DNA from: Hyaloscypha bicolor E | Lineage: Eukaryota; Ascomycota; Leotiomycetes; Helotiales; Hyaloscyphaceae | Length of the DNA stretch: 64,000 bases | Assembly (NCBI RefSeq): GCF_002865645.1 | Contig: NW_020194512.1 | Location: 2,335,183-2,399,182 of the forward strand | Direction: 5' to 3' | In this document: positions 968 to 37,833 of the stretch, one piece after another | Position numbering within the stretch: the first letter of the stretch is position 1 | How the letters are laid out: the number at the start of each line of letters is the position of its first letter | Notes under the pieces: generated by a model | What the model saw: the letters and a program-made list of their open reading frames with translations, nothing else | Told to the model about the DNA's origin: nothing | The model's database searches: none | Program-made: the position numbers and the translations under genes

Positions 968-1939
968 TTATCCATCCTTAGGATTGTTCTTCTGATGATA
1001 GATGTCCACTGGCCGGTCTTTGATATCTTCGCTAGAGCAGATCTCAGGCGGCGGAAGAACCCTTCTGTAACTTTCTTCCTTCGGATCCGTCACACCATAT
1101 CCGTATAGATCTCTTTGCTTCAAGAAGCTTTCAATCCTCTCCTCACGGCTGCCATAAGCACTCATCGCCTCCTTCCTCCTCCGCATCAAATCCTTAGAAA
1201 CGGTTTTGTGAAGAGCATCCCTCTGTTCAAGAAAGCTAATAGAATAATTTCCGGCCCGTGTAGCTTGAGTCATGCCCCCAAAAGCAGCAAATGTCAAAAT
1301 TAACCCCACGAAAGCAGCGTTCGAAACATGTCTTGGTTCTTGTGGTCCCTTTCCCTCACGCTGATACCACTTCTCCCAGTCTTCCCAGGTAGCGTTCTGG
1401 CTTGGACCACTAGGTCCTCCACCCCACCCTCTCCCACTGTGACCCCCCCATGTAGCTGGTTGCTCTGATGAATCTCGAGGACGGAGAACATCTGGTTGGC
1501 CATTCCATCCCGCTCCATATATGTCGTAAGCACCCCGCTTGACCGGATCTGACAATATATCGTTTGCAGCAACTACAAGCCTGTATCTCTCTAGCTTCGT
1601 AGCATACGGTAATCCGCTGCAGTCATCGGGGTCGTGTCGATCAGGGTGGTATAGCTTCACAAGCTCGTAGAATCTCTTCTTCGAATAAGGTGATCCTTTT
1701 TTCTGGTTGAAGATCTGGTATGGGGTCGGGATGGCGTTCGCAGACGTTATTTCTGGCCAACGAAGGCTTCCATGGTCATGCCTGGTATGGCCATCCGAGA
1801 CGATAGCATATGAACGGCATTGCTGTTGTTTTGCTCGAGATCCCGGAGGCTGGAATGGTGACGTCTTTGATGGTGGCGCTGAGGAGTGGAAAGCATGTAG
1901 ATTGGTGCTTGACAGCAGGATTCCGGATTTCTTCAACAT
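968..1939 (-). CDS. Mitochondrial J-domain (DnaJ-like) membrane protein
   Basis: This is an uninterrupted 323-codon reading frame from an ATG at 1939. Residues 1-45 are rich in Ser, Arg and Ala with few acids, like a mitochondrial presequence. A J-domain spans about residues 70-145 with the diagnostic HPD at 98-100 (LYHPDRHDPDD), followed by a conserved-looking helix (ANDILSDPVKRGAYDIYG). A Gly/Trp-rich linker follows and a single hydrophobic segment lies near residues 207-226. J-proteins stimulate Hsp70 ATPase through the HPD loop, so this one probably recruits mitochondrial Hsp70 at the inner membrane. That role is inferred from the layout. It shares a ~336-bp divergent upstream region with the plus-strand gene at 2276. 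Confidence 0.8.
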   Translation of the reverse strand: MLKKSGILLSSTNLHAFHSSAPPSKTSPFQPPGSRAKQQQCRSYAIVSDGHTRHDHGSLRWPEITSANAIPTPYQIFNQKKGSPYSKKRFYELVKLYHPDRHDPDDCSGLPYATKLERYRLVVAANDILSDPVKRGAYDIYGAGWNGQPDVLRPRDSSEQPATWGGHSGRGWGGGPSGPSQNATWEDWEKWYQREGKGPQEPRHVSNAAFVGLILTFAAFGGMTQATRAGNYSISFLEQRDALHKTVSKDLMRRRKEAMSAYGSREERIESFLKQRDLYGYGVTDPKEESYRRVLPPPEICSSEDIKDRPVDIYHQKNNPKDG

Positions 1940-2275
1940 GGCTGACGGAGAGCCAGCTCAATCACTGGCACATTTTGATCATTAGTGAGAGGGAAGAGGG
2001 TGGTATGCCTCGCTCCTTCCTCACTCAAGATATCGTGTGAGAAGGTTTACCCAAGTCCGGTCCTATTTAGTGCCTCCTCGGCTGTCGATAAGGAGACCCT
2101 CCGAAAGCTTATCGGAACGCGTCTCCAAAAGTCAATAAGAAGTCCATTCTTCTCGATCTATCTCCCGCGTCATCTTCTTCCCTCTTGCACAAAGAGCACC
2201 AACACGTCCATATGAGTGCACTTGCTCGCTCTAAAGCACAATCGTCTTCTGCATTGCGTCCCTCAAGCCTCTACC
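1940..2275. promoter_or_regulatory. Divergent promoter region between J-protein and F-box-like gene
   Basis: About 336 bp separate two divergent start codons, so both promoters must lie here. Short T/C-rich stretches occur before the plus-strand gene. No specific binding site stands out. Confidence 0.5.
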
Positions 2276-4053
2276 ATGAAGTGGTTCCCTCTCAAACGTC
2301 GGCTTCTGCCTCGGCCGAGATCGTCCAACTCCCAACCGACCGATCTTCCCGTCAAGTCCGGTGACAAGTATGATGAAGCTTCAGGGCAAGTGTACAGAGA
2401 AACATATGTCTCCATTCCGAGCGGTAATGACCAAGACTGGGCTCGAAAGAGACACGTCGTTCGCGAGCAGCACGAGAAGGACCATCTTGGCTACGAACCA
2501 GCCTATGGCGCCGAACATCCGAAGACCAGAGCTTCCAAAGGTGGTAGATCTCTGCAAGACATCGCTATGGATACCGTGCTCGACAATATTGCTAATATCA
2601 CCTTGGAGTACCTCGAGTCTCTTCCCTCTGTGTTGGTGGATCGTATCTGGTCTGAAGTAAATCAGAGGTCGGTTTCCACTAACGCTTCCTTTGCCCAAGG
2701 ATTCGAATTGTGCCGTTATAGATTTGAACTGACATGCCTACTTCTAGTACTAGGATGTCTTTTGACGTGTGGAAAACTTTCTCGAAATTGCTTCAAAATC
2801 GAAACGAAACCACACTCAGAACCTTGAGATACCGTGAAGCAATCGAATCCCCGAGATCCCCTCTAGAGACATATACCTCCCCCTTGGCCTCAAACTCCTT
2901 CGAATTCATAACTATCCTCAGTATCACAACAGCATTCAACTTACGTGACCTTGTCAAGCTGTCTGAGATTCCGAATATTGGCGTTCTTGAAATCGTTAGG
3001 ACATCCGGAACAGTTCAGTGCGTCATCTCAGATCGAGTGGTTCGGGCCTGGAGTCTCGCGGCTGTGAACGACGGAGCGTTCAAAGTCCTGAGAATTCTCA
3101 GACTTTGGAACCAGTTGGACGTCACAGGCAAATCGCTGAGCTACCTCAAGGACTTCCCTGCTCTCGGTGTCTATGATGTTCGAGGCTGCGGTTTTAATCT
3201 TCGTTCCCCTACCGACGCTCGTCTTCTAGGCTGGAAACCGACCGTCGATCGTAGCGTGCTCAATGTCCTGCATGCTGCTTGTGTTGAAAGAGCAATCATC
3301 TTGCGGGAAAACCTTGGCTTAGATCCTCAGCCCATCCGCAGAGCATCCGCCAAACAACTCTGGGATGGGGCCAAAGTCTGGAAGCTTCCTCGTGGAGAGG
3401 TGGCTGCTTTTCTGACTCGAGATGAGACGTCCAGTCCAGGGACCCCAAGAATCGCCGAATTCGCCCTAGACTTGAATAGGCTGAGCGCAGCTGCAGATAG
3501 GGTTGCAAGAATCAATCCAGGAATCGAGGGCAATTTTCGGGCCTACTTCTGGGAAACAATGGATGACTACACCTTTGAAGCGAGCCGGATGAAGATGACT
3601 TGGGAATTCCAGCTCTACTCAGCGTATGCTCGACTTGGAGAGCTCAGAAATGATCGTGATTTGTTGAGAGCCGGAATTGATATTGGAGATCAAGCAATGG
3701 TGGGTAAAGAGTTGATTAATTCCGTCCCTGTGGTTTCGATTCGTCTTGGTCCAACATCCCCGGAATTGCGTCCTACCTCCGCAGGCAACGGCTCCCACAA
3801 GTCAACTTACGGTAGTGCAATGGCCAGTAATAACTCCTACTCGTCGAATCGAATCGCAAGCCGCTCTGACTTCGATCCCAAGAACTTGTGCTTCATTCGA
3901 GTCGAGGTCCCCTTGGAAGCACAAGAATCAGCAGCTACAACCCTTGGACAAGGGAAGAAGACTAAAGAATCCGGACGAAAGCGAAACAGCTTCATGAGTT
4001 TGGCGGAAAGTAAAAGGATGAAACTGAGCGAGGTTTTAGAATCCTTCCTTTGA
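2276..4053 (+). CDS. F-box/leucine-rich-repeat-like protein, unknown substrate
   Basis: Exons 2276..2667 and 2748..4053 are joined through a GTCGGT...CTTCTAG intron with a CTGAC branch; the frame is exact and gives 565 residues. The start is the ATG opening MKWFPLKRRL. A second ATG at 2212 lies in a frame that stops after about 50 codons. Near residues 95-130, LEYLESLPSVLVDRIWSEV has the spacing of a weak F-box helix. The remainder has leucine-rich stretches (FKVLRILRLWNQLDV, YLKDFPALGVYDVRG) like irregular fungal LRRs, then a Ser-rich basic tail. F-box/LRR proteins serve as substrate receptors of SCF ubiquitin ligases. That role is inferred, and no family-level recognition goes further. Confidence 0.65.
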
Positions 4054-4541
4054 AAACAATGTTTGCGATATTGCGGGAGTTTCATTGGAGTTTGCGATGT
4101 TGCAGCAACGATACCCCCATGAGTTCTTTCTTTTCATTTGATTTGCAGGCGCGAGAACAATGATACCCAGGAGTTTGCGGATTGGAGTTGCGGTGGTTTA
4201 TGAGAGATGCTTGAGCTGGGGACTTATGGTCGTACCCATTCCGAACAATGGGGAGCTTGTGAAATGCGTGAGACCTGGCTGGGGTTTGCATGTAAGACTG
4301 AATTAGCTCTCACTCGAGATAACACCTCGCCCAAGTCTAGAAAAGTAAATGAAAAACTTGGAAAAACTGGAAAACTACTTGGCCATGACTCCTCGCAGGA
4401 TGAACCCCCTCCGGCTCTGGATAGCTGGATGAAGCAAACCTTCAGAACCGCTTGGCTCCGAGGGATGGACTGAAAGCTGCTGGATTTTATACAACCTACA
4501 CAATTTACAATCTCCAATTTCCTCTCCCTCCTGCGGCGAAA
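4054..4541. other. Convergent intergenic region
   Basis: About 490 bp lie between two gene 3' ends. Both strands contain short ORFs without recognisable motifs. No repeat or RNA gene was seen. Confidence 0.55.
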
Positions 4542-6720
4542 TCACAGCTCCCCTTTAACGACCTTCTGCTCGCCTTCTCCTGCTCCAAAAATATTCAAAT
4601 AATCATCCACAACTAGCCGCGCAACATTCTTCCCCATCAGCGCACTCGTCTCCATCGTGCTGATGAAACTCTCCATCCCGCTTGTGTAGTAGAAACCTCG
4701 TGCTAGCTCGGGGTCTTCGAAGGTGATGCGTGGAAAGAGGTAGGGGTAGGAGAACCATTTGTGGGGGTGGAACCAGGTTACTGGGGAGTGGGAGTTGATG
4801 GTTGTGAGGTCTTCGGGGGCTATTTATAGGGAGGGAGGGTTACTGTAAGTGATTGCCAGTTTGGATGGAGGAGAAAAGGGAAGGGCTCTTACCGTGAACG
4901 TTCAGTATTTCAGAGAGGAAAGACGAAGTAACAGCTTTCGGCGAAAAGATCTTATAGAGATGTTCTTTCTCCAACGTCTCAGGGTTTACCACGGTTCGTA
5001 AAGTCGAAATGCTAAAGAAGCCCGGTGAGCCAACACTATCTTCTAGTTTCTCTGATAGTGGGGCGTCTTTCGGGAGGGTAGTCAAGATCGAGGAAGGGAC
5101 TTCGTCTTTCGGTGATAGGTTGAGAAATGTTTGGTTTATTGCGTGGGGGGAGGTGAAGAGTGTTACGTGGAGCGTTACGTAGGGGATTTCGTCGGGGACG
5201 TGTTTGATGAGGCCGTCGGCGAGAGCGAGTTGCGAGAATTGGAGGGGTGCGGCGAGGATGATGGTGTCGAATGATTCTTCGTTCGTTGACAGATTACCAG
5301 TGAGAGAGTCAGTGGTGCTGGTTTTGAGCGAGTATTTCGATTTTGATTTTGAGATGGAGGTTACGGCTGTGTTGAGGAGGGTGGAGGCGTTGGAGGCGTT
5401 GAGCATGCCCGCGAAGATTTGCCAGTTGCCGCCTTGGATTTGCATTGCTCCTTCGACAGCCATGCAGACCATTGATCCAAGACCATGGATCAGGTTGAGA
5501 TTTTGTCCATAGTTGACTCGAGTAGTGGCTTGGATGATGTCGGTAGCAAATTTGGACCCGATCTGAAGATAATTAGCAGTTGATCAAACTCCGCGTCTTG
5601 CAAGACTTACATTATTAGCTGCCAGGAATTGCTCTCCAGTCATTGAAGTCACAGGTGTGAGACCCAAGTCCAGAGCCCTATCGGACAAGGACCTGAAAGG
5701 AAAGAAGGGATATTCATAAAGCTTGAGGAGCTTGGCGGAAACGTCCTTCACCAAGCGCTGGGTTCGAATAGGGGCAAGTCCATACTTCCACAAAAGTTTG
5801 GTAACATCCCAGTAGTACCACCCACTTTCTTTCTGCTTGTACACAAATTCTTTGCCATCCCAGATACCAAGAAGTTCTCCACCATCTGTTTCGGGTGTTG
5901 ATTCCTTGGGTTTAAGGCCAAGAGCTTCGCTTGAGTTCTTCAAAATTGGGTTGGCCTCAACGAAAAGACTTGCGCCGAGTTCGACGGGCTCCAGAAGGTT
6001 TCCATATGCATTGACGGTGGTTGAACGGCCGCCTACATAGGATGAGCGCTCAAAGACTGTGATGTTGAGTGAGAGCCCGGATTCGGAGGCGAATTGTTGC
6101 AAGTAATATGCTGTGGAGGATCCAGCCGCTCCAGCGCCTGAATATCATCAGCTTCTGCAACTGTTTGATGACGATGCTGTCCTAAAAACTAAGAAAACAT
6201 TTCACAGTGCATCTCAGGACTTCCTGGCAAACTGGATGTCTGCAATGAGCTTTCATCCCCGTTTGTTCAGGTGATGAGCGAAAGACTGGGAGAAAAGGGA
6301 TTTGAGACAATGAGATGGGATCTTTCCTGGGTTAATAGTAGAAGTATTGAAGGACTGAACAAAAAATAACTTGTGGAAGCAAAGATCGACACTGTACGGA
6401 CAGCTTCAGCCTTCCGAGCCGGTTTCGACGCCACATTCTTCTCGAACTTGTTCTAGAGCTAGAGATCGAGCACTATACTCCGAAAATGTGCAATTATTGA
6501 TTAGGAAATACTCCTGACGGGGGACTAAGCTTGATGAATCAATGAAATTTAACATACCAATAATTGCAACTCTTTTGGCGTTTGCATCTGGGTAAACAAT
6601 GTCCTGCGAATCAGGAGTCGCGTGAACAGATGTGAAGGGCCAAATGCCTTTGCTCTGGCCACAAAGCAAGGCCACGATGAGCGTAAGCACAAGGTTGCAG
6701 CCTGAGTAATACATCTTCAT
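4542..6720 (-). CDS. Prenylcysteine oxidase (farnesylcysteine lyase) homologue
   Basis: Minus-strand exons are 6558..6720, 5611..6137, 4893..5562 and 4542..4819, all with GT-AG borders. Frame continuity gives 545 residues. Residues 1-25 (MKMYYSGCNLVLTLIVALLC) form a signal peptide. Splicing of exon 1 to exon 2 creates the FAD-binding dinucleotide fold VAIIGAGAAGSST, followed by FERSSYVGGRST and the family-like EPVELGASLFVEANPIL. The C-terminal part (FHPHKWFSYPYLFPR) resembles PCYOX1-type enzymes, which are about 500 residues long. These lysosomal or vacuolar flavoproteins cleave prenylcysteines released from degraded prenylated proteins. The first intron is 420 nt, unusually long here, so a missed small exon cannot be excluded. 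Confidence 0.85.
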
Positions 6721-21788: not shown

Positions 21789-22178
21789 CCTTCGTCCGGT
21801 GAGACATGTCCAGCGCTAGCAAGGGGGGTGTAGCTGCACGCAAGCCTCATCTCGTTTTACTCTCCCCCCCCTGGTTTAAAGGGCACCCGAGACATTTTGG
21901 TGAGTATTTAACAGGGTGCTTGGCGAATAGAAAGTGCTAGAATTTCGAGGCTTCTAGGGCTCAAAGCCTTCTTAGACTTGATCACAGACCAAGTCTTGCT
22001 CAGTGCGAGAGGCTGCCTAGGGTGCCCTACCAATCAGAATAAGTGCTTTATACCTTCAACCCACAAAATGGTGGGTCTGCCCTTTAAACCGGGGGGGGGG
22101 GATAGTATTACGCTTCAAGAGGCTTGCATGCAGCCACACCCCCCTTGCTAGCGCTGGACATGTCTCACCGGACGAAGG
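21789..22178. repeat. Foldback (large inverted repeat) element
   Basis: Arms 21789-21886 and 22078-22178 are near-perfect reverse complements over about 100 bp. They share AGCGCTGGACATGTCTCACC, a homopolymeric G/C run and a TTTAAA core, and enclose about 190 bp of unrelated spacer. The single-strand form would make a long hairpin. It could be a foldback-type transposon or two inverted copies of a repeat. No clear target duplication was found outside the arms. Confidence 0.65.
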
Positions 22179-25045: not shown

Positions 25046-25234
25046 CTAAACCTTCCGTTTGTCAAGCTTCTCGAAGCTAGACTGAGCATCGGGGTCCTTG
25101 TCAAGTCTGCCAATGTCGCCCACCAACGAACCCACTCCGTCGTCGTTAATTTCATGTGGCGTGCCATCATTGCTTGAAGTATCACCGGTTATATCCATGT
25201 ATTCTTCGGGCTGGCCTTTGTTGATGATCTGAGC
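25046..25234 (-). pseudogene. 3' fragment of the disrupted homeodomain gene
   Basis: This minus-strand frame encodes an acidic C-terminal tail (QPEEYMDITGDTSSNDG, ending KLDKRKV and stop). Removing the retroelement and one copy of the TGAGC duplication makes it continuous, in frame, with the segment 37834-38046 (…HPPGDRANRSA then QIINKGQPEEY). The retroelement thus separated it from its 5' part by 12.6 kb. Confidence 0.6.
25230..25234. repeat. Target-site duplication TGAGC, left copy
   Basis: TGAGC directly abuts the left LTR and is repeated at 37829-37833 directly after the right LTR. This proves that the 12.6-kb interval inserted as one unit. Confidence 0.95.
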
Positions 25235-25388
25235 TATCACGACCCGGAGCGGAAGACCTGAAGGCAATCAGCTCTATTGGGTGTGTATGTAAACGTCTAA
25301 AGAGAGAAAGGAAGAGAGGAGCGGGGAGCTCGAGCTAAGTACAGGGTGCCACGCTAGGGCCAGGTCATGTGACGCTGACGTCACAACA
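25235..25388 (-). repeat. 3' LTR (154 bp) of the 12.6-kb retrotransposon
   Basis: On the minus strand it begins TGTTGTGACGTCAGCGTCAC and ends GGGTCGTGATA. It appears identical base for base to 37675-37828. The terminal dinucleotides are TG...TA rather than the usual TG...CA; the related solo LTR at 15325 also ends in TA. It contains a pyrimidine-rich block (CCGCTCCTCTCTTCC). Confidence 0.97.
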
Positions 25389-25400
25389 TCCCCCCTTCAG
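25389..25400 (-). other. Polypurine tract of the retrotransposon
   Basis: On the minus strand GAAGGGGGGA lies immediately upstream of the 3' LTR, the normal position of the plus-strand DNA primer in LTR retrotransposons. Confidence 0.8.
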
Positions 25401-25448
25401 TAGTAAGAGTTCTCCGAACTCGAGCAAACTAGCTAAAAAACCTCATAT

Positions 25449-28400
25449 CTACCATCCTGTTCCCGTTCCTTCGCTAGCTCCAGTCTGTCCCCAACTACTA
25501 GTAGTCTCCTTTCCTTCATCCTGAACAGCTCCAGTCTCCTGTCCATCCTGAACAGCTTGTCCCCAGCCATTGCCTTGTCCTTCAACTTCTTCCTCAGCTT
25601 CAACTTCCTCAGGTTCATCCTCAATTTCGAATTCACGGGCTACATGACGGTCCTCAAATGCCTTCGCATTAGTGATTGAGCGGACGTCGAATTCAGGGAC
25701 ATAGGTATAGCCTCTGCTAGCCTCTTGGTTAAAAGAAGAGAACTGAGCTTGCTCAAACCAAGTGACATATTGCTTTCCGGTCTTCTTCTCTTGCTATTGA
25801 ATACCTTTAATGAATATATTATCTGGAAATTCGATAATAACCTCACTACCAAAGGGAGAAGCAAAGAGACCTTCCTCGCGTGCCGGGATTATAAAGATGG
25901 CTTTAATAGAGTCCTTCTTACTATTAAAATCCTCTGTACCGCGAGGAGAGTAATAGAATGACATGTCTGTGATCTCAAGACGTTCTACCTTTTCGGGAAT
26001 AGCAGGTATATCCTTATAGGATAATTGCTTGACGTAGTTGATTATTATGTCCTCTTGGAGCTTGTTTATTGGAATACCTGGCAGAGATTAAGCTATAATA
26101 AATGAGTATTTAATAGTCCTATTAATCTCATTAATACTGAAACCGTGCTCGTCGATTTCCTTGACTTCGTTAATCGTGTCTGGCTTTACAGGATAGTTCG
26201 ACAAGTTTCCGCGTGTCTGGGGCTTCTTGGGGACGGTACAGTTACGATTACTGTAATTACCTCCGCAGTACTTGCAGGGCTAACGCTTGAGGCAGTACTG
26301 AGCCATGTGACCCTTTTCCTTACAGATCTTGCACTTAATAAATGGGCATGCGTCTCCTCGGTGCTCACAGGAGTTACATTTCTTGTAGCCGCTAATCTCG
26401 AATTTGAGGTGCTTTGTGGAACCGCATCGTCTATAGCTCTTTCTATTAAGAAGGTTTCCGTTAGCATCCTTCTTAACTTGTGGGCGTAAGGCTTCGTTCT
26501 TTGGATCCTTGTATTTACGGGCATTATGACCTCGTTCTAGACAGTTCCAGTATTAAGGGGGCAGGTAATCCTTGTCAGAAACGGTGCAAGTGCTCTTGGT
26601 GTGACCCTTCTGGCCGCATTGGAAACACTCCGATGTATCTGGGGCTTGGAGCTTAATATAGACTCCTTGAGTCTTAGTCATTTCTATGAGTATCTTGATA
26701 TTCCTAATATGCGATCTGAATATCTCAAACTCACTATTAAGGTTATAGTTTTCATAAGCTAAAGCGCCGTCTGGGATAATAATTGCAAGACTATTGTGGT
26801 ATCTAGTAATTTCAATGAGTAATCGACGGGGTTCCGTGCCAAATTCAGTCAGATAGTAAGCATTTGGCAGCATTAGGAAAACACTGTTTTGACTAATGCC
26901 TTATATAACTTTAGAGACAAGGGCATTGCAGTTCTTTAGGCCGCGGTGGTTGATTTCTGTCTGAATTATTATAGCCTCTGCCTTGTAAGGACTAATAAAT
27001 GCGAAGGACATGCCCTTATTAGCGGTGTATTTGTCTAATTAAAGCATATATTAAGCTTCCTCCATAAGTTCGATTACGAAGTACTGAGTGGCCGGATTAT
27101 ATATGGAGTTATTACCGGATTTAATAAAACTCTTTGATTTCTTAACGACGACTACGGCGAAGTTGTGTGGAATGCCAAGCTTCTTATTAAATAATTCCTT
27201 GAAGAATAGCACGTTCGGTAAAGAAGTAACCGTCTTAATAGCATTAACTATCTGGCCATGGTAAAAGGTATAATTAATGAAGTTCGTAAGTATTAGGGTG
27301 TTTATACGGAACTGCTTATTAAGGAATATGCCGTGTAAGGTTATTTGGCCGGTTTTTATTAAGATTAGTATAGTCTCAGCCTTATAGAACATGTTCTAGT
27401 ATTCGGGATTAGTAGCGGATTTAAAGAAGACTTTTATTTAAATAGGATCTCCGTTATTAATTATAAAACCGATAATTCTATAGGCACCGATAAGTGCACA
27501 GGTCATAGCAGGGGTGCGCTTTCTGCCTTTATCGAGAACTATGACTATATAGAAAGGAACTACTTGCTATGCTATAGTTCGCAAGGCTTGTCCGGATATG
27601 GCAACTACTGTATTGGCACTACCCAAGGTGTCCTTACATAGTTACTTACGACTAGCACGGACGAGAGCTCAATTAACCATATTATTATCCGGGTTCTTTC
27701 GGATATACTTTAACTTCTCTAGTAGCGCCGCATATTACTAGTTAGAGTCACGTTCCGTATTGGCCTTAAACCACATGGCCTTATAGAGAGTAAGGTTCTT
27801 GACAGATTCTGTAAAACGCTTATTACTAACCTTGCGAGTCTCATTAGTGGATTTGGTAATGTTATAGAGGTAACGTGTAGTAATAAATATCTCGGTCTCC
27901 TTATTATTATCGTGAAAGTTATTAATAAAGTATGGCTTTAATATCTTCGTATTAAACTTCGTATTCTCAGTTAGCAAAGAACCGAGACGAATAATAGTGC
28001 CTTTAATATTATAATGCTTTAGCTCCTTAGTTAGTTCCAAAGCAAGATAATTGACTCTAATATTCGTTTCCTGGATAATTAAGGCATTAAACTTCTTAGT
28101 GCGCTTCTCCTGAATATTCTTTGCAATTATTATAGCTACTAGTAGCATGCTAATTCTTGACTTCGCTAATACTACTACTCCTTGAATACGTAAGTAAGCA
28201 TAATAAATATTAGATGCGCTATTAATAAGGGAGTCTTTTTGCTAATCTGAGAGCTTATTACATATCTTTTCCTAGTTCTTTGGAGCATAATTATTAAAGA
28301 AATTAATAACTAGGTATTCTAAGGTATTATTAAAAGCAAGGAAATACTTGGTAAGATGCGCGTTTGCTAGGGCCGTATTTGGATCTGACTTAAGCTAGAA

Positions 28401-30310
28401 GAATTTGTTTAGATTATGAATAAGATCCCGATATGTCCTATTAGAATAACTGGGCTTAATAGAGATACCGAATTTTGGTGCTTTACTAAATTTAATACGT
28501 AGATACTCAAGATTACGAAAATTAGTCTTGTGGCTTGGAATTTCGGTATCTACTCAATATTCGTAGCCTTTAGGGCCTCGGAAGCGGAAATCGGGTCTAT
28601 GGAAAATAATAATGGGTAGACTATTTACTAGAGTATACTTGTTTATTTATTAAATAATTCCCATTCATGTTTATAGCTAGCGTAGCTCTTCTTTAGCTAT
28701 GGCTTCTGTAGAGATCTCCCGACGGACCTCGGCTGCTTCTTGTGTATTGTTATTGAAATCCTCACGGAAGGTGCCATTATTATTGAAATCTTGAGGGAAT
28801 ATACGTGGGCGCTTAGTATTTTTGCCTGTGTATTCTGGGCAGTCGGGGACGTCGAATGGAATGCGGATACGAACTATGTTACCTGCCTTAGGACGATTAA
28901 GCTTTGAGTTCTTCTAATTAATATATAGTAAGTATATCTTAGGAAGATTATTATTGAAGTTATTATTCTTAAAGGAAGTTCCAGGCAAGGCTATAAAAGA
29001 GATATTAAATAACGTAGCCTTCTACTTAGTATAATGGCCCTTGGAGAGATTATGCTTGCAGGTAATAGCGTAGATTTGATATATATGAGTCTCTAGTTAG
29101 TCTTGCCAAGTAGTCTTATTTATAATAACCTAGCCTTTCTTAGAGACAGGAGGGAATTCGTGGGGACAGAGGATATTTCCGATTATTAATAACTACTTGT
29201 TCGGAGAGTTCTTTACCTAAGCCTTGAGAGGATTAAGAGCCTTATCTACGAGAATCTTATTCTTGAGCTTTCCGAATATCTTTATTCTATAAGCGGCATT
29301 ATTAATAACTAGGAAGAACGTGAATATGGGTTCTTTCTGCCGCTTAGTAGAGAGGATCTCCTTAGAGAGGGATTTGAGGTATTTCGAGTAATCGCGCGTA
29401 TTCATGTATGGGATATTGGTACCGGTGGCGTTTAGCTTCTTTATGTGAAATATGATATATGCCTTATCCGTAGCGTCGAAATAGTTATTAGCCTTTGGGT
29501 TAGTGGTTTGGTAGCCAAAAGCTTCTGGTAAGGGGCCGTATTTGGCGGCGTGGACGATCGTGAAAGCCTTAATATTAAGAGAGCTAATATTAATCTTGAG
29601 AGTGTGACTGTGGATACCGCGAGGATTGACCTTTTTAGAAGGCTTCGTGTTTGGCGGGTCGATAGCGCGAGTGCTGGTCTAGCTTATGGAAAGCTGACCG
29701 CGGAAATACTCCTGTTCGAATATTAGTATAATGAATGCGACCGGTGAGAGTCTGCTATTATTACTACTTAAATTGGCCTGGTATGGTTGATTAAAGGTCT
29801 TTCCGTTAAATATGATACATGTAGAGACCTTAGGGATGACCTCGTGAACTAGCGTAATACGTGCCGGTGGCTCAGGTTTGGTTATGGTAATCGGAATGAT
29901 AGGAACGGTAGTGCTTTTAGCTAGAGTGGCTATAGTAGCGGGAGCGGTAGTACCTTTAGCTAGAGCTTTAATGGTATTGGCGGTAGGAGCTTTAATAACT
30001 TTGGCAGTAGGAGCTTTGATGACTTTGGCGGTGGGAGCTTCGATGACTTTGGCGGTAGGAGCTTCGATAACTTCGGCGGTAGGAGCTTCGATAACTTCGG
30101 CGGTGGGAGCTTTGATGACTTTGGTAGTAGAAGCTTCGATGACTTCGGTGGCGGGATCTTTGATAGCTTTAATGACTTCGGTAACGGGATCTTTAATAGC
30201 TTTAATGACTTCGGTGGCGTCTTTAAAGATATAGTTATCCTGAGCTTCTATAAGCGCGTTGGCGATATTAGTGGGGGATCGAGAGTCTATAGTGGAATTA
30301 ATTAGATAAG
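25449..30310 (-). pseudogene. Retrotransposon-borne SF1 (Upf1-like) helicase with CCHC zinc knuckles, RIP-damaged
   Basis: Between pol and the polypurine tract, minus-strand coding sequence can be followed for about 1600 codons with many stops. In order: an 8-residue tandem repeat (I-E/K-A-P-T-A-K/E-V, 29.98-30.23 kb); an uncharacterised N-terminal region; and a helicase core. The core has a Walker-A-like QGVVVLAKSR (28.15-28.19 kb), a DExx-like VIVLDKGRKRTPAM (27.51-27.55), motif III NGDPI-stop-IKVFFKS (27.41-27.46) and motif VI RRLLIEITRYHNSL (26.77-26.83). CCHC knuckles CFQCGQKGHTKSTC (26.58-26.63) and CKICKEKGHMAQYC (26.28-26.33) follow, with degenerate ones around them. A clean acidic/Gly/Gln-rich tail ends at the stop at 25449. 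Motif order and spacing fit Upf1/NAM7-type superfamily-1 helicases, which unwind RNA or DNA. A role in the retroelement life cycle is inference. Confidence 0.75.
29980..30234 (-). repeat. 24-bp tandem repeat coding an 8-residue unit
   Basis: About eight 24-bp units with consensus GGAGCTTYGATGACTTYGGC on the plus strand translate on the minus strand to IEAPTAKV-like units. They merge into 33-bp units (AIKDPVTEVIK). The frame is kept despite RIP-type changes. The array lies at the N-terminal end of the helicase region. The plus-strand open frame here is a by-product of the repeat. Confidence 0.8.
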
Positions 30311-30649
30311 GGAACTTGAATAGCTAAGTAAGGGGAAATGATTCGTTTAAATAGTTAGTGGATTAATAAGGTTACGATTATGATTATAATTACGAATATA
30401 TAGTATTAAGAAAAATTTTTGGTAATGAGATATTTATGCGAGCACTTCTCAAGGTAAATCGGGAAGCGGGATAAGGTAAATTAATAGTGATTTACCTTTA
30501 TAATATGACGGAAGCGATTTGTGATTACGAAAACTTCTAAAAAAGATATTAAAAAAGTAGTATAAGGAACCTAATAGTACTCTTCTAGTATTTCGAGGTT
30601 AGTTAATGTGTAGATGCCATCTCCTTGCGCTAGGTATTATTGTCGTAGT

Positions 30650-33600
30650 TTAATATTATTGCGGATAAAGGTTAGTTTAATATCTTTATGGACAGGTAAT
30701 ATTAGTAGCGGTATCTTTGCTCGGATTCGAACATATTAAGTAACTGCGGGACTTCTTACCGTAATAAGGTTTCTGGCTCCCATATCGTGTCTTAATAGTC
30801 TAGCCATTTGATCTTATAGAATGCTACTTGTTTTCTAATATCTAGGACCTTTCTTATTTCCTTATCCATAATCTTCTCGATTATATAGCGCTTCTCTCCT
30901 TTAATAGTAATATGTTCAGGCTCTGGCCATAGATACTTATACGGATTAGGTAAGGCTAGTTCGAGGAATTCGACTAATATAACTAGGTATATTCCCGTAA
31001 GCCATTCCGGAAGCTCGATTTTAAATAAGAGATCTCCCTTATAGCGCTCCAGGATTTAAAAGGGGCCTATTTTATTAAAAGAGAGCTTGGTTTAATTCTA
31101 TAGATAGTAATTCTTTTCATGCTTCTTGCTAATCCTGAGGTATGCGAGCTCTCCGAATTTTGGCGGCGTGTGGTTTGCGTTATAGTAGATCTTTATTCTG
31201 GCCTGAGTAATAGCGACCGCGTCTATAGCTTTGTCCCGGATATTCTTTCGGTTCTGTAAGAAATTATCTATATTTATAGTAGTCTTGCCAAAAGCTATCT
31301 TAGCTTCCCTACTATAGAGAATGGAAAATGGCGTAATACTACTTGAGGCATTAATAGTACTATTTATGGAAAGCTATACCCATAGTATAATATTTTCCTA
31401 ACCGGATTAATTATATTAATTACTAAGGGCGTATTATATGGCATGGATAAAGGTTTGGATTATATGCTTAGCTTATTTATTTACGGGAGAATAATATATA
31501 GCCGTAAATACTAGATTCGTACGGGATAGCTAGAAAAGCCTAGTCTAGAATACTAATATGAACTTGGAATCTCAATCGGAAATAATAGTATCTGGCAATC
31601 CCTAATTACGGAAAATATGCTCAAAGTACTTTTCTGCCCAGGCTTCCGCTATATCCGTTTTCTTCCTAATAAGGTAGCGGATAAATTTGGAGCATTTGTC
31701 TATAATTAGTAAGGCTTTATTATTCCCGTTCTTGAATATAGGGAGACCATTTACGAAATCGAGACATAATACTAATAGTGGTATCTTTAGATACTTGATA
31801 GGCTATAGGGATCCTCACGGTCGAATTCGAGAGGGCTTTGCTTGGGAATATACTAGATAATTCGAGGCATATTTGAGGATTTCCTTCTTTATTCTTGGGA
31901 AGAATACGTGCTATCTAAGAACCTGGAATATACGCTCTACTCTAATATATATAATAGAATCGTGTACTATCTTAAGCAAGATCTTGAGGTATTTACGTAA
32001 TATATACAAGTATTCCCTATTATTATCTCGGAAAAAGAGGAGTTTTAATTTTATATCCCGGCGGAAGTTATATAAGGTTATAACCGGACCGTTTTCGTTA
32101 TGGATTATATTATTATAGGTTCTATATATTTGCGAGTATATTTTCCGGAAACTAATATCTTTGGGCAAAGCCTCTGCTACTTGCTTTAAGAATCCAGGTT
32201 AAATATATAGAGTAAAGACTATGTGCTCTAGTGGTTACGGATACGAAGTCTCTTTAGCCAGAGCCTCTTGAGCCTGTGGAATTTCTTTAACTTGTGCCGT
32301 CCCTTGAGCTTATAAAGAGCCTTAAGGCTATGGAGTCACTTTGTTAAATTATATGAGATCTTCGGATTTAGTTAAATACGCCTTGGCCTCATTCTTAACT
32401 ATTACTCGTGTCTGTACCGGGAAAGCATATATTAGGAACATATGCTTCTGGAGTTATATAAGTTCTTTTACGGGATATAGGACATAATCTATTACTTGAG
32501 TAGGCTTTCCTGAAATGCGAGATAGGCCGTCTGTATTTGCATGAGTCTTTCTAGGGTAATACTTAATCTCTATGCGGTCCTAGTACTTGGAGAGAAATAG
32601 TCGCTAGTTCGCTAATCTTATGGAATGCTTATTAACTAGGCCTATGTCTTTAAAAGTATTTATAATCGCCTTATAATTAGTATAGACCGTAATTTTGCTA
32701 TTATCTAGGAAATGAGGAATCTTTTAGAGTATTTATATAAGAGCTATGGTCTCTAATTTAGTTAGCTAGTAGTTATATTCCGCTAGAGTCAGGTCCCTGG
32801 ACAAATATAGAATCGGGTACTCTAATCCGTCCGGTCTAATTTAATATATAGTACTACCGAATTCCTATTCCTTACTACTATTTACGTATATAATCTAGTC
32901 CTTATTAAAATTAGGGTAGCCTAGCTGAGGGGCGGCATAAAGGCGTTCTTGGAGGATTACGAAAGCCTTTTTTGCGTTATTAAGTACGAGATTTTCTTTC
33001 TATTTCTTTATTATTTTATTTAGCTATTTCTTGGCCTAGTAATCTTGTCCGGGACCTTATATAGGAGCTCCCTTAAATCCTAAGGTCTTTAAAGCTTGCA
33101 TTAGTCACGAAATCCCGGTATAGTAGTCGACGAACTTTCTATAATAGTTAAAGAACCCTAAGGTATTCTCTAGTTAAGCCAGGGTACCTGGAAATCGCAT
33201 TTCTCTAATTACTTTAACTTTTTTGTCTAATATGCTTAGTCCGAGATAATTAACCCAGTGGCCTAAAGCTTTTAGCCCTGGCTATACGAAATGGCACTTT
33301 AATAGGTTTAGGGTAATTCCGGAGTATAATAGGATTCTGAGGATAGAGAAGAGATAATTAATATAGGTTTTAATATTCTTTGAGAAGATAATTATATTAT
33401 TAATATAGACTAGGACGAACTTCCAAAGGTATTTGCTAAATAGTTTTTCTATCCGGTACTAGAAGAAGGCAGGGGATATAGATAGACCTATTATACTAAC
33501 TATTAGCTACTCGTGTTCTTTGTGAGGAATTATAAAGGCTATCTTCTACTAGTCTAATACGCGGATTAGTTACTAGAAGAAACTCTTAGTCATATTAAGG

Positions 33601-35540
33601 TATGAGAATACTACTTCTCTGCCCATAGCTTCTAGGATATTGTCTTATTTTGGTAAAGAGTATATATCTTAGTATAATTTGGTATTTACCTTATATAGAT
33701 CTATTATAAATCGGGGCTTCTCGTCTTAGTATATAATGAATCCCGGTAATATATAAGGTAAAGGCTATCCTAATAGTACTAGTTTAATAATGCTAGCTTT
33801 CCGTAATAGGTCGAGGATTATATCTATAGTATCCCGGTCGCGCTTAGAGAAACCGTATAGTATTTGCTTGAGATCTGAGATATTAGTATCTTTGCGGAAA
33901 GGGATTAGTATTTTGATTCCGTTATTGAAATAACCTAACTCTTTATGAAAAAGACGGGCATTCTCCTTAATGACTTATAGGACACGTTAATAATTATCTT
34001 CTCCCCAAGTATTAGAGATATTAGCTTGGGATAAGTCTATGCCAGGGTCTAGTAAAGGCTAAATCAAGTGTGAATAGCCGTCTGGGTACTTCCCTTCTAT
34101 ATCTTGCTATATTAGTAGTAGACCTTAAAAGACTTTAGCTAATCCGAGGTATACTTTAGCCTCCTTGTCTATGTTTTGCGGGGCGGTTTCCAGGCAGTCT
34201 AGTAGACCGATAATCTTGCCTGCTAGAAGCTTAATTAGGGTCTTTCCGAAATTTGCGTAAGGTAATAGCCTTGTAGTCCCGTCCGTAATACTATTAATGA
34301 GTATACCGAATATATCTAAGGCAAGGTCATATTATGGCTGAGGGTTTATAAGGTATCCGTGATTTAGATATGGCAGGATGTGGTATTATACTGCGATATT
34401 CTGGCCGTGACCTGGAGGTATAATGACCGTTTCTATTACGTAGATCTGGGCTCGGTAATACTAACTAATTCGTGTAGCACGTTATTTCTCGGTATTAGTA
34501 TTAGGCAAGTACGAAATCCGGATCTTCTTTTTATTATATATAAGGTAATCGAAGTCTAGATCTGTCTTTAACTAAATAATATCTATCTTGCTTGGCTTAA
34601 GGAAAGATGTTCCAAGAAGAATATTATATTAGAGCTCGTTAATGATATATACCTTAGCTATGAACTCAACTATTTCTCTTTCTATTATAAGGAATTATAT
34701 AGGAATGCGTGCGAATAGCGTAGTGGCCGGGCCGTTACTAATACCAGATAGATTAATAATATCTTTACTTATTTATTATGGAATATTAGGAAAGTGAGTG
34801 TCTATAACGTAGCGGTTAATAAGGCAGATGCCGGCACTAGTATTAGGATAACAGGATACTGGATCTCTTTCCGGATTATAAGTTGTGGCTCGTGTATTCA
34901 TATAAAACTTGTGGGCTTTGCCGTTAATAAAGTATACTTCTCTAGTAATTACTACCTCCTTTGGGTTTCTTTAATCGCGTGATTAAGGGTTAGGTTTTGC
35001 AGGCTATAGCTCGCTTTCTATAGGTGGCGGCTCGGGTTCTTGTGGTAATACTACTCGTGGCTTTACTAGTAAAGGAGTAAATCTTGACCCCCGTAGAGCG
35101 GGACCGAAACTGTCTAATAGTCTAGTGATTGAGATATTACTACTAGAAGTATCGAGAATATAAGGTAATTATACGGGATTACTATTTTATAGTAAAGGAG
35201 GCGCGAGGTCGAAAAGTACTTCTAAACGGGAAATAGAACGAGAAATAGCTAGTAACTTTTGTGTAGTAAGTAGTACTAAATTCATGATTATAAGGTTAGG
35301 ATTAAGGATAAGGGGCCCTCCTATTTAATTTAGGAGTAGTGGTCTACTAGTCCCGCGTGGCCGCCGTTCTCGTTTTCCTATAGGATATTAGGATCCGTGA
35401 ACGTCGGTAAGAAATAGTTACTAGGTGAATTATTATTAGAAGGGCCCTAATATATAATATATGTATCGTGGAAGATCTAATAGACTACTTTGGGGACTTG
35501 AACCAAGTCTGAGTATTTGTTATTATAGTTATTATATGAA
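30650..35540 (-). pseudogene. Retrotransposon pol: reverse transcriptase, RNase H, integrase, chromodomain
   Basis: Minus-strand segments, broken by stops, match a Ty3/gypsy pol in order. The RT palm is VLVYINNIIIFSKN near 33.39 kb, with YINN in place of YIDD. RT thumb/connection follows (LGLSILDKKVKVIREMRFPG; GFFNYYRKFVDY). The RNase H end has RIEIKYYPRKTHANT near 32.55 kb. The integrase zinc-finger/core includes CLDFVNGLPIF, IISD-stop-DSKF and an NK-stop-AKHIIQT remnant (31.4-32.1 kb). A chromodomain has FYKIKWLDY-stop-DTIWEPETLL near 30.75-30.88 kb. This domain order defines chromoviruses, whose chromodomain guides integration to chromatin. No catalytic domain is intact. Confidence 0.85.
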
Positions 35541-35549
35541 TAGTAGGCT

Positions 35550-37459
35550 AGTACCTATAGGCTATTATTGCGGAAATTGAAATCGCTACCACGGTTATTA
35601 TAGCCTCCTCGGTAGTATCCGTTTCCACGATTATAGTAGCCTCTATAATAGTTGTCTCGGTATCCATATTTACTACGATATCCTCCACGGCCATTATATC
35701 CGTCGCGATTCTCGTATTCTCCGCGGTAGTTAAACCGATTTTAATTACTATATGGGCCTCATTTACCTTCATAATTATTATATGCTCCCCGGTTATAGCC
35801 TTTACCGTCTTCCTTTTAATTTGGACATTATTAATTAGGCTATATAATGACTAGGGCATTTGGCTATTATTAGTGCGGGCTACTGAGAATTTGTGCTATA
35901 GCTTCTCGTGAAATATAGCGAGAAAAATTAATAGAACAAGGGTTTTCCTAGTTTCGGTAGCCCTAGTTTCTGTTATTTCAATGGTTCTGGTAGGAATTAT
36001 ATTAGTTATACTGGCCGTACTAGTCGGAATTATTGGCGGAGCTCTTCGTGTTCGATTTCTTAACTATCTTGCGGATAGAGGCATGCTAGTCTCTGGCTAA
36101 TGCTTCCTGTATATAGACGCTAGCCGTAAATTGCTCGATAGTATTAGTACTATTAAGCTTGACTACTAGTCTGAGAGTGGGGTCGAGTTCTTTGTGGAGA
36201 TATTGAATAATTAGGTCTTTATTAACCTCTCTAGCTTCAATATATAGAGCCTGCTTCTTGTGTAGATAGTCTCGTATAGGGAGTTCGGATTCCTTATTGA
36301 AAGAGTGCTATATATAATTAGCTTCTTATAGTATAGTTAACGCGTTTATTCGGAACTGTGCGGTAAGCTTTATTATCTATATTTCTAGAGAGTTATTTAT
36401 AGCCAGTCGAGTAGTAGTAAAAAGACTATCGAACCATGACTGAGCTACTCCCTTTATAGCTCTGGGAAGCAAGCTAAGGATTGTCTTCTCGCTATATAGC
36501 TCTGCCATACATTCTAAGTAATTAATATATGATATGACTTGAGTAGTACTATTATACTAGAGGTTATTAGCCTTAAGCTTATTAGTATACTAGGTTCCGG
36601 ATTATTTTACGGGAGTGCCTTGGCGATATTACTACTAGTACTTTCCTTGGCCAGGTGAATCGAAACGCGTGGGACTATTTCGGAATTATTTCATAAAGGC
36701 TATAAACCGGCTAATATTAGTAATATAGCTATTTCTACTCATAAGATCTTATATAGCTCTAGCGTGGTTCAGAGTACGGATCTCCGGTTTAATGACGCGG
36801 GTAGTAGCTATAGCCATTATCTTATTAGTATTATTAAAGACTCCTGTTACCTCAAGGTTTAAATGATCCGTATAGACCCGTTCCCAAGCCATTTTAATAA
36901 AGGCTATGTTCTTGGCCTATTACTTTATGGTATATCCTGTACTTCCTATAGAAGTAGCTATATTATCTAGTATCTCCGAAGCAGGTATCCCTAGCGGATC
37001 TTTTTCTTGGTATCTTTGGAAGGTTTCGGAGAAAAGGATAGGCTTGAGAGGGCTTTTGAGATCTAGATTTAGGCGGACCAGTAATAATTATTAGGAGCGG
37101 ATAGGTAACGAGTGTATAGGGTTTTGGTAAGGTAGAGAACGCTATCTAAGTAGTAGGTCCTCGGAAATAGGAGATTCGTCTTGTATAGGCTCTTGGTAGT
37201 CCCAAGGAGCCGGACGAGGTGTAACTGGGTGAGGGGCGGCTTGAGGAGAAGGCGTAGCGGTTCGAGGTCTCGTTCTTGTGGGTTGAGGAGCTCTCGGAGG
37301 GGAAATAGGAACGGTGGTAGGTTTCGGAGTAGTAGGGAGAGCTAAAGAGGGTTCTGCTTGAGAGGGTCCTGCTGGGGAAGGTTCTGAAGGCTCCTTCCGG
37401 AATCGGCCGTCTGCTCCTCGAGCTCTGTGCTTTCGATTCTTTTGGTTTCCAGTCGGCAT
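35550..37459 (-). pseudogene. Retrotransposon gag with Arg-Gly-rich region
   Basis: An ATG at 37459 opens a clean Pro/Ser/Thr-rich N-terminus (MPTGNQKNRKHRARGADGRF) to about 37142. After that, RIP-type stops begin. A capsid-like segment follows (NIAFIKMAWERVYTDHLNLE near 36.85-36.91 kb). Near 35.56-35.82 kb there is an Arg/Gly/Tyr/Asn-rich tract (NGRGGYRSKYGYRD). No intact CCHC knuckle is visible in this gag, though Cys and His codons are ones RIP would turn to Tyr. Gag forms the particle and binds the RNA. Confidence 0.7.
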
Positions 37460-37654
37460 CTAGCTAATCCATAGGAGACGTCGTAGCACAGTGCGCACAG
37501 TGTGACTACTAAAGACTATGTGATTCTTCGATTAGTGATTTGGATTCGAATCGGTGGCGGATTGAGAGGTGTGTGGGGGTTGGTTGGAATCGCGAATCTG
37601 GTTGCTGTAGTCGAAATTACGTAGGCTCTTGGTTTCCGGAGGTCAAATCAAGAA

Positions 37655-37674
37655 TCAGACTGGCATTGCTACCA
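37655..37674 (-). other. Primer-binding site of the retrotransposon
   Basis: On the minus strand TGGTAGCAATGCC follows the 5' LTR directly. The TGG start is complementary to the CCA end of a tRNA primer. The exact tRNA was not identified. Confidence 0.7.
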
Positions 37675-37828
37675 TATCACGACCCGGAGCGGAAGACCTG
37701 AAGGCAATCAGCTCTATTGGGTGTGTATGTAAACGTCTAAAGAGAGAAAGGAAGAGAGGAGCGGGGAGCTCGAGCTAAGTACAGGGTGCCACGCTAGGGC
37801 CAGGTCATGTGACGCTGACGTCACAACA
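37675..37828 (-). repeat. 5' LTR (154 bp) of the 12.6-kb retrotransposon
   Basis: It appears identical to 25235-25388 in all positions compared by eye. As the transcriptional start of a minus-strand element it should hold the promoter. It contains CACATGACC and a pyrimidine-rich block but no clear TATA box. Confidence 0.97.
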
Positions 37829-37833
37829 TGAGC
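37829..37833. repeat. Target-site duplication TGAGC, right copy
   Basis: This directly follows the right LTR and equals 25230-25234. Confidence 0.95.

Follow-up and report, generated by a model that had tools for sequence, protein, structure and literature searches.

The window analysed here, a stretch of 64,000 nucleotides from Hyaloscypha bicolor E (contig NW_020194512.1, positions 2,335,183 to 2,399,182), carries on its minus strand a long terminal repeat (LTR) retrotransposon that is followed in this report for the sake of its third open reading frame (ORF3). The element spans 25235-37828, a length of 12.6 kb, and is bounded by two identical direct repeats (100% identity across 155 aligned nucleotides), whose termini, TATCACG...CACAACA on the plus strand, give an LTR size of 154 bp. 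Paired LTRs and a short target-site duplication, present in the window and in three further copies, identify it as an LTR retrotransposon. In the 5' to 3' direction it presents gag pieces, a reverse transcriptase (RT) piece, an integrase piece, a weak chromodomain and ORF3 (Table 1). The RT piece upstream of a Ty3-G-like integrase piece places the element, on sequence grounds, in the Ty3/gypsy group (Metaviridae); both scores are weak because the element is decayed, and for seven of the ten gag/pol pieces of the window a Pfam search with a limit as loose as E 1 brings up nothing of retroelement kind.

Ty3/gypsy elements usually end after the integrase or bear an env-like gene. ORF3 is almost certainly the third gene of this Ty3/gypsy-type element, broken by stops and predicted to encode a superfamily 1B (SF1B) helicase-like protein with CCHC zinc knuckles. 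Its minus-strand region, 25452-30323, reads as 1,624 codons in one frame with 30 stops, against 82 and 199 in the other two forward frames, and many stops also lie between pol and ORF3. A first-pass annotation of this DNA had described some 4.9 kb of same-strand coding sequence after pol; the single continuous frame is indeed there, in a decayed and not an intact state. The chromodomain that it placed at the end of pol was recovered as a weak match below the cut-off. When ten pieces from the window were scanned against Pfam, the only relevant matches were AAA_12 (E 0.0003) and zf-CCHC (E 0.0022). Both fall below cut-off, so the case for a helicase rests on intact relatives of the protein.

Table 1. 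Parts of the retrotransposon and its flanking duplications, in window coordinates, listed from the 5' to the 3' side of the element
Feature	Coordinates	Strand	Basis or remark
Target-site duplication TGAGC, 5' side	37829..37833	.	
5' LTR, 154 bp	37675..37828	-	direct repeat, 100% identical; ends from termini
Candidate primer binding site (TGG...), adjoining the 5' LTR	37660..37674	-	sequence only
gag region, fragmented	35558..37459	-	reading frames; one piece Arc_C (Arc/Gag C-lobe), E 0.089, not significant
Reverse transcriptase piece	33285..33458	-	RVT_1 E 0.0017, below cut-off; best PDB match E 0.64
Integrase piece	31605..31802	-	sole PDB match up to E 10 is Ty3-G Gag-Pol, E 0.0056; no Pfam match
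Possible chromodomain, end of pol	30795..31055	-	Chromo E 0.081, 13.3 bits against cut-off 25.1; weak
ORF3, decayed frame of 1,624 codons, helicase-like with zinc knuckles	25452..30323	-	30 in-frame stops; 51% identity to P0002
Tandem repeats, 24- and 33-nt units, N-terminal part of ORF3	29963..30219	-	
Predicted SF1B helicase core, motifs I to VI (GVVVLAKS ... RRLLIEITRYHNS)	26790..28181	-	motif alignment of relatives; AAA_12 E 0.0003 on 27054-27395
CCHC zinc-knuckle array	26238..26627	-	zf-CCHC E 0.0022, below cut-off; pattern scan
Acidic tail, GW/WG motifs	25452..25661	-	sequence composition
Polypurine tract (GAAGGGGGGA), just before the 3' LTR	25389..25398	-	sequence
3' LTR, 154 bp	25235..25388	-	direct repeat; ends from termini
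Target-site duplication TGAGC, 3' side	25230..25234	.	

Intact relatives and the helicase class

Two intact relatives of ORF3 come from metagenomic data. In whole-frame searches, for which the stops of the window ORF3 were written as X, residues 690-1420 match P0002, a protein of 1,619 amino acids from a Joint Genome Institute (JGI) metagenome with six members on five contigs, at E 4.9e-254; it is the sole match among 7,691 candidates. The two share 51% identity over 1,499 columns with 41 gap positions, in a single frame throughout. Opposite the 30 window stops, P0002 has tryptophan ten times, glutamine seven times, arginine three times and other residues ten times, so that one of the three named residues stands at 20 of the 30. 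A search with P0002 (two matches including the query, among 4,772 candidates) led to P0003, a protein of 1,200 amino acids that is 44% identical to P0002 across 1,149 columns and 38% identical to the element over P0003 residues 23-1169. A third protein search, with P0003 as the query, scored 7,988 candidates and recovered nothing besides P0003 itself and P0002. The viral contigs searched for relatives gave no match, and none of the 33 pattern matches in bacterial and archaeal genome contigs is a relative. Relatives at 51% and 38% suggest a long life of this protein under constraint. Conservation between P0002 and P0003 extends to the roughly 500 residues upstream of the core, for which there is no Pfam match.

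The domain content of the relatives indicates the class. P0003 exceeds the cut-offs of AAA_12, AAA_11 and zf-CCHC; P0002 exceeds that of AAA_12, with zf-CCHC at 19.1 bits (cut-off 20.8) and no report of AAA_11. Of these three families, for which hidden Markov model searches had been proposed, the window itself yields only AAA_12 and zf-CCHC, below cut-off. Through P0003, with AAA_11 and AAA_12 both over cut-off, and through the order of the motifs, ORF3 is classed as a predicted SF1B helicase of the Upf1-like kind. P0003 further matches the IGHMBP2-family model TIGR00376 at E 2.5e-8, far under its equivalog cut-off. Viral_helicase1 (PF01443) scores 19.3 bits with P0003, below its cut-off of 21 and far below the 55.5 of AAA_12; since it is not the best domain, a viral SF1 helicase of the insect-retrotransposon type was rejected. 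No envelope family is among the Pfam matches of the ORF3 pieces, P0002 and P0003, and ORF3 does not conform to the errantivirus type of third ORF. Sequence searches of PDB with the relatives (E up to 0.1, 0.01 and 1) gave CCHC proteins and no convincing helicase, with the CCHC pair of P0002 resembling HIV nucleocapsid at E 0.0005; the last of these searches, made with a profile, gave SMUBP-2 at E 0.69.

For the motifs, P0002 and P0003 were aligned with host Sen1, Dna2, Upf1 and two ZNFX1-like genes, and were compared with them pairwise by BLASTP. Sen1, Dna2, Upf1 and the ZNFX1-like gene on C28 were named by PDB matches, while the gene on C42 takes its name solely from its resemblance to the one on C28. 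Motifs I to VI of the relatives line up in order with host Upf1, Sen1 and Dna2, and the relatives keep motif Ia, the DE of motif II, the GD..Q of III, the Q(F)RM of IV, the QG of V and the R...SR of VI. The motifs that had been quoted from the window alone therefore find their places from I to VI by way of the intact relatives, but with a non-canonical P-loop. Where the canonical Walker A reads GxxxxGK[S/T], the intact relatives have GVVASAKS and GCVASAKS (in summary GxVASAKS), and the window GVVVLAKS: the lysine and serine are retained, and in the relatives the glycine before the lysine has become alanine. As both relatives share this P-loop, it seems to be characteristic of the clade and not a product of decay, and ORF3 suggests that a separate clade of SF1B helicases exists in which the P-loop is unusual.

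ORF3 thus resembles Upf1, Sen1, Dna2 and IGHMBP2 in the ordered motifs I-VI and in AAA_11 with AAA_12, and differs from them in its atypical P-loop, its CCHC array after the core and its low identity. The best BLASTP match of the relatives to the host Upf1, Sen1, Dna2 and ZNFX1-like genes is weak (E 3e-9, Upf1 with P0003). The cysteine-histidine domain of Upf1 has no Pfam match up to E 1 in P0002 or P0003, and the Dna2 nuclease domain is not among their Pfam matches. With no cysteine-histidine domain and low identity, ORF3 was not accepted as a Upf1 orthologue; the host Upf1 is a separate gene at C3:1413500.

The CCHC array follows motif VI directly. The pattern C-x2-C-x3-5-H-x4-C occurs five times in P0002, and two CCHC patterns are present in P0003 and two are legible in the window, in agreement with the knuckles first noticed there. 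An acidic C-terminal tail with glycine-tryptophan (GW/WG) motifs is found in P0002 and, more or less decayed, in all four copies of the element; in this tail, picked post hoc, five of the 89 residues are tryptophan in P0002 (binomial P 0.003), as are three of the 70 in the window copy (P 0.045). The observation that the tail ends beside the polypurine tract extends to all the long copies, as the 3' end of ORF3 adjoins this tract and the 3' LTR in four of four.

Copies and decay in the host genome

The host genome searched comprises 82.0 Mb on 76 contigs, one genome in all, and its match counts are lower bounds. A 1.5-kb helicase probe found at least six places, four at full length and two partial, and a 1.5-kb pol probe at least 18, of which four are nearly full, one covers a third (C75) and 13 are short. 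The four full pol matches are the same four loci as the four full helicase matches: pol and helicase have travelled together in four of the four long copies found in this genome. Each copy has outer LTRs and its own target duplication, TGAGC in the window, GGGTC at C1:1545813, AGTTA at C3:1376131 and CCTAT at C55:498765. The junction of pol and ORF3 is contiguous in the window, and a single alignment runs across it in every one of the other three long copies. By their LTR positions the latter measure 19 to 27 kb, being interrupted, probably by later insertions; the breaks in the C3 and C55 copies fall within ORF3. Copy alignments also break in the area of the tandem 24- and 33-nt repeats.

These results bear out the first-pass annotation in its reading of the helicase region as part of an element that moved as one, which the identical LTRs, the TGAGC duplication and the shared junction support. 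Within this one genome, copies with matching LTRs, all of them decayed, carry both pol and helicase. Of the two contrary findings that had been named, neither appeared in this genome: the helicase does not occur only as a separate element or host gene, and the junction near 30.3-30.6 kb, where a nested insertion might have shown, is unbroken in the other copies.

Shorter pieces of the family are scattered. C75 has a 5' LTR with the first 1.65 kb of the element and part of pol, and the helicase and P0003 probes match nothing there. P0003 matches the genome in at least seven places (10 scored candidates): the four long elements, a piece on C45 and two pieces on C16, of which one is weak (E 4.3e-5). 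The C45 piece and the first C16 piece are less decayed, with 5 and 1 stops, and the C16 piece stands about 4.4 kb from a family LTR of opposite orientation. A C-terminal ORF3 probe adds pieces on C31 and at C3:1251672. No intact stand-alone gene of the ORF3 kind was found in the host genome by the P0003 and probe searches, with counts that are lower bounds. Five further LTRs (L019 to L023, on C51, C51, C23, C46 and C70) are 97-100% like those of the window, one of them identical over 154 nt; as no other element sequence lies within 1.5 kb of them, they are apparently solo LTRs of a recently active subfamily.

The window copy of ORF3 has the fewest stops; the other three have 64, 71 and 73 (61+12) in their matched parts. 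The gag/pol pieces, too, are more decayed in those three. Over 4,707 sites, ORF3 of the window differs from that of the second C1 copy by 845 transitions but only 23 transversions, and the remaining five copy pairs behave alike in their excess of transitions. At element positions 1000-5000, TpA/ApT is 1.37-1.45 against 0.66 in the flanks, and (CpA+TpG)/(ApC+GpT) is 0.56-0.57 against 1.30-1.31. Such indices fit repeat-induced point mutation (RIP) in most of the interior, though not in the flanks or, in the window copy, in the final 440 bases of the interior. RIP, of which a bias to transitions is typical, is the most likely cause of the decay. Within the four LTR pairs, differences number 0/155, 3/124 (34 gap columns), 3/157 and 3/156, so that by their LTRs the insertions look young. 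The LTR pairs are thus nearly unmutated while the interiors are heavily RIP-like.

Three decayed AAA_12 loci (L071, L072 and L073, on C51, C5 and C62), tried as members of the ORF3 family, were rejected. They are decayed extra copies of a host ZNFX1-like SF1 gene, of RIP-like composition, with 31, 34 and 15 stops in matched parts.

Related systems

Fungal Ty3/gypsy chromoviruses share with the element the LTRs, the order of RT and integrase and a possible chromodomain, and lack its extra 4.9-kb ORF3. Precedents in layout and in content come from animals. Insect retrotransposons (Lazareva 2015; Morozov 2017, 2019) are reported to carry an SF1 helicase as an accessory domain, for which silencing suppression or a part in RNA quality control was proposed. 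Those helicases stem from plus-RNA viruses (PMC6338049, PMC5563155, PMC4686597) and reside mainly in long interspersed nuclear element (LINE) proteins, with some LTR-element fusions, whereas the gene considered here is a separate SF1B Upf1-like ORF in a fungal Ty3/gypsy element. In LTR retrotransposons of bdelloid rotifers, an ORF3 that encodes an enzyme takes the place of env behind pol, but it is reported to be a GDSL lipase or a DEDDy exonuclease and not a helicase (Rodriguez 2017, PMC5408684).

Arabidopsis SDE3 combines helicase motifs with an Argonaute hook (Garcia et al. 2012, as cited and summarised in PMC3763480 and PMC10991848). ORF3 resembles SDE3/MOV10 as a predicted SF1 RNA helicase, a likeness of class; SDE3, however, serves host silencing and ORF3 has few GW motifs. 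The mobile fungal helicases that are reported belong to Helitron, AcademH, KolobokH or RecQ types in the portions consulted (PMC10799480, PMC4522978, PMC5576322). No fungal Ty3/gypsy or LTR element with an SF1B helicase ORF was found among the papers listed from the open-licence PubMed Central (PMC) literature, judged mostly by titles and abstract starts. If it is truly a long-conserved helicase-like gene, ORF3 would represent a new accessory type for Ty3/gypsy elements, and would open to experiment the question of whether retrotransposons possess a counter of their own to RNA surveillance.

Possible roles of ORF3 and the insertion site

An intact ORF3 protein would bind the element's own RNA, probably by its knuckles, in the manner of retroviral nucleocapsid and further proteins of the CCHC kind. 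The SF1B core may provide ATP-dependent translocation or, because its P-loop is atypical, clamping only, and the GW tail may dock Argonaute; four host loci encode Piwi domains of Argonaute type, although one of the four contains several stops. A third gene behind distant stop codons should expose the element RNA to host nonsense-mediated decay, and the resemblance to Upf1 and SDE3 would leave the ORF3 protein well placed to shield it. Shielding or remodelling of the element RNA against Upf1-pathway decay or RNA silencing is accordingly put forward as a tentative possibility, though a serious one. Its stricter form, in which ORF3 mimics the host RNA-surveillance helicases, occupies the element RNA and draws off Upf1 or Argonaute complexes, is rather doubtful; if true, fungal LTR elements would gain with ORF3 their first known counter-defence gene of the helicase type. 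Judged jointly, the identity of ORF3 and a surveillance mechanism appear on balance probable.

Several results weigh against this account. Up to E 0.1, the X-marked whole ORF3 frame of the window has neither a Pfam nor a PDB match, and an AlphaFold model of P0003 with P0002 is useless (mean predicted local distance difference test score, pLDDT, 30). With alanine in the P-loop of both relatives, ATPase activity could be low or lacking altogether. Only a few GW motifs are present, and P0003 stops shortly past its second knuckle without such a tail. Nearly all differences among the copies are transitions, with only 11-27 transversions per copy pair, too few for codon-position selection among the four copies to be decided.

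The protein could instead work inside the particle, as a second nucleocapsid-like CCHC chaperone coupled to a helicase motor that unwinds the 12.5-kb RNA or cDNA in reverse transcription. Such a part would suit both the HIV-like CCHC pair of P0002 and the position of the array directly behind motif VI. The majority of Ty3/gypsy elements, however, function without a helicase, and the P-loop is atypical. Moreover, the separate ORF of P0002 and the many window stops between pol and ORF3 imply that ORF3 is not simply part of gag or pol. This role is held to be unlikely, even though cooperation of transposon helicases with RT has been suggested (Morozov et al., PMC6338049).

It is rather unlikely, too, that ORF3 is passenger cargo, a cellular or foreign helicase captured once that hitch-hiked through one burst and is useless to the element. 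The few transversions mark the four copies as descendants of one recent ancestor, so their travelling together could reflect a single capture, and the proliferative advantage of the bdelloid ORF3s is likewise described as unclear (PMC5408684). Against a passenger stand the lack of a donor gene among the host matches of P0003, which are the four elements and three partial pieces, the strong divergence from host SF1 genes, and the long constraint that the two intact relatives suggest.

A nested insertion, with a helicase-bearing element inside an ordinary gypsy element, is highly improbable: fungal chimeras do exist, such as the subtelomeric helicase/gypsy chimera of Colletotrichum higginsianum (PMC5576322), but the helicase there is reported as DEAD/RecQ-like, and one contiguous junction in four insertions with different duplications, in each of which ORF3 ends next to the polypurine tract and the 3' LTR, argues against nesting and against a host gene. 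A composite that had formed before the burst and then moved as one would equal the accessory-gene case.

With regard to the surroundings, four flanking ORFs are without a Pfam match. When the flanks are joined at 25234/37834 with one TGAGC removed, an open minus-strand frame of 137 amino acids runs across the empty site; it looks RNase-H-like, and on this account the insertion may have gone into the remnant of an older retroelement. At 21789-21871 and 22096-22178, two arms of 83 nt with 224 nt between them form an inverted repeat of 84% complementarity, which may represent a small DNA transposon.

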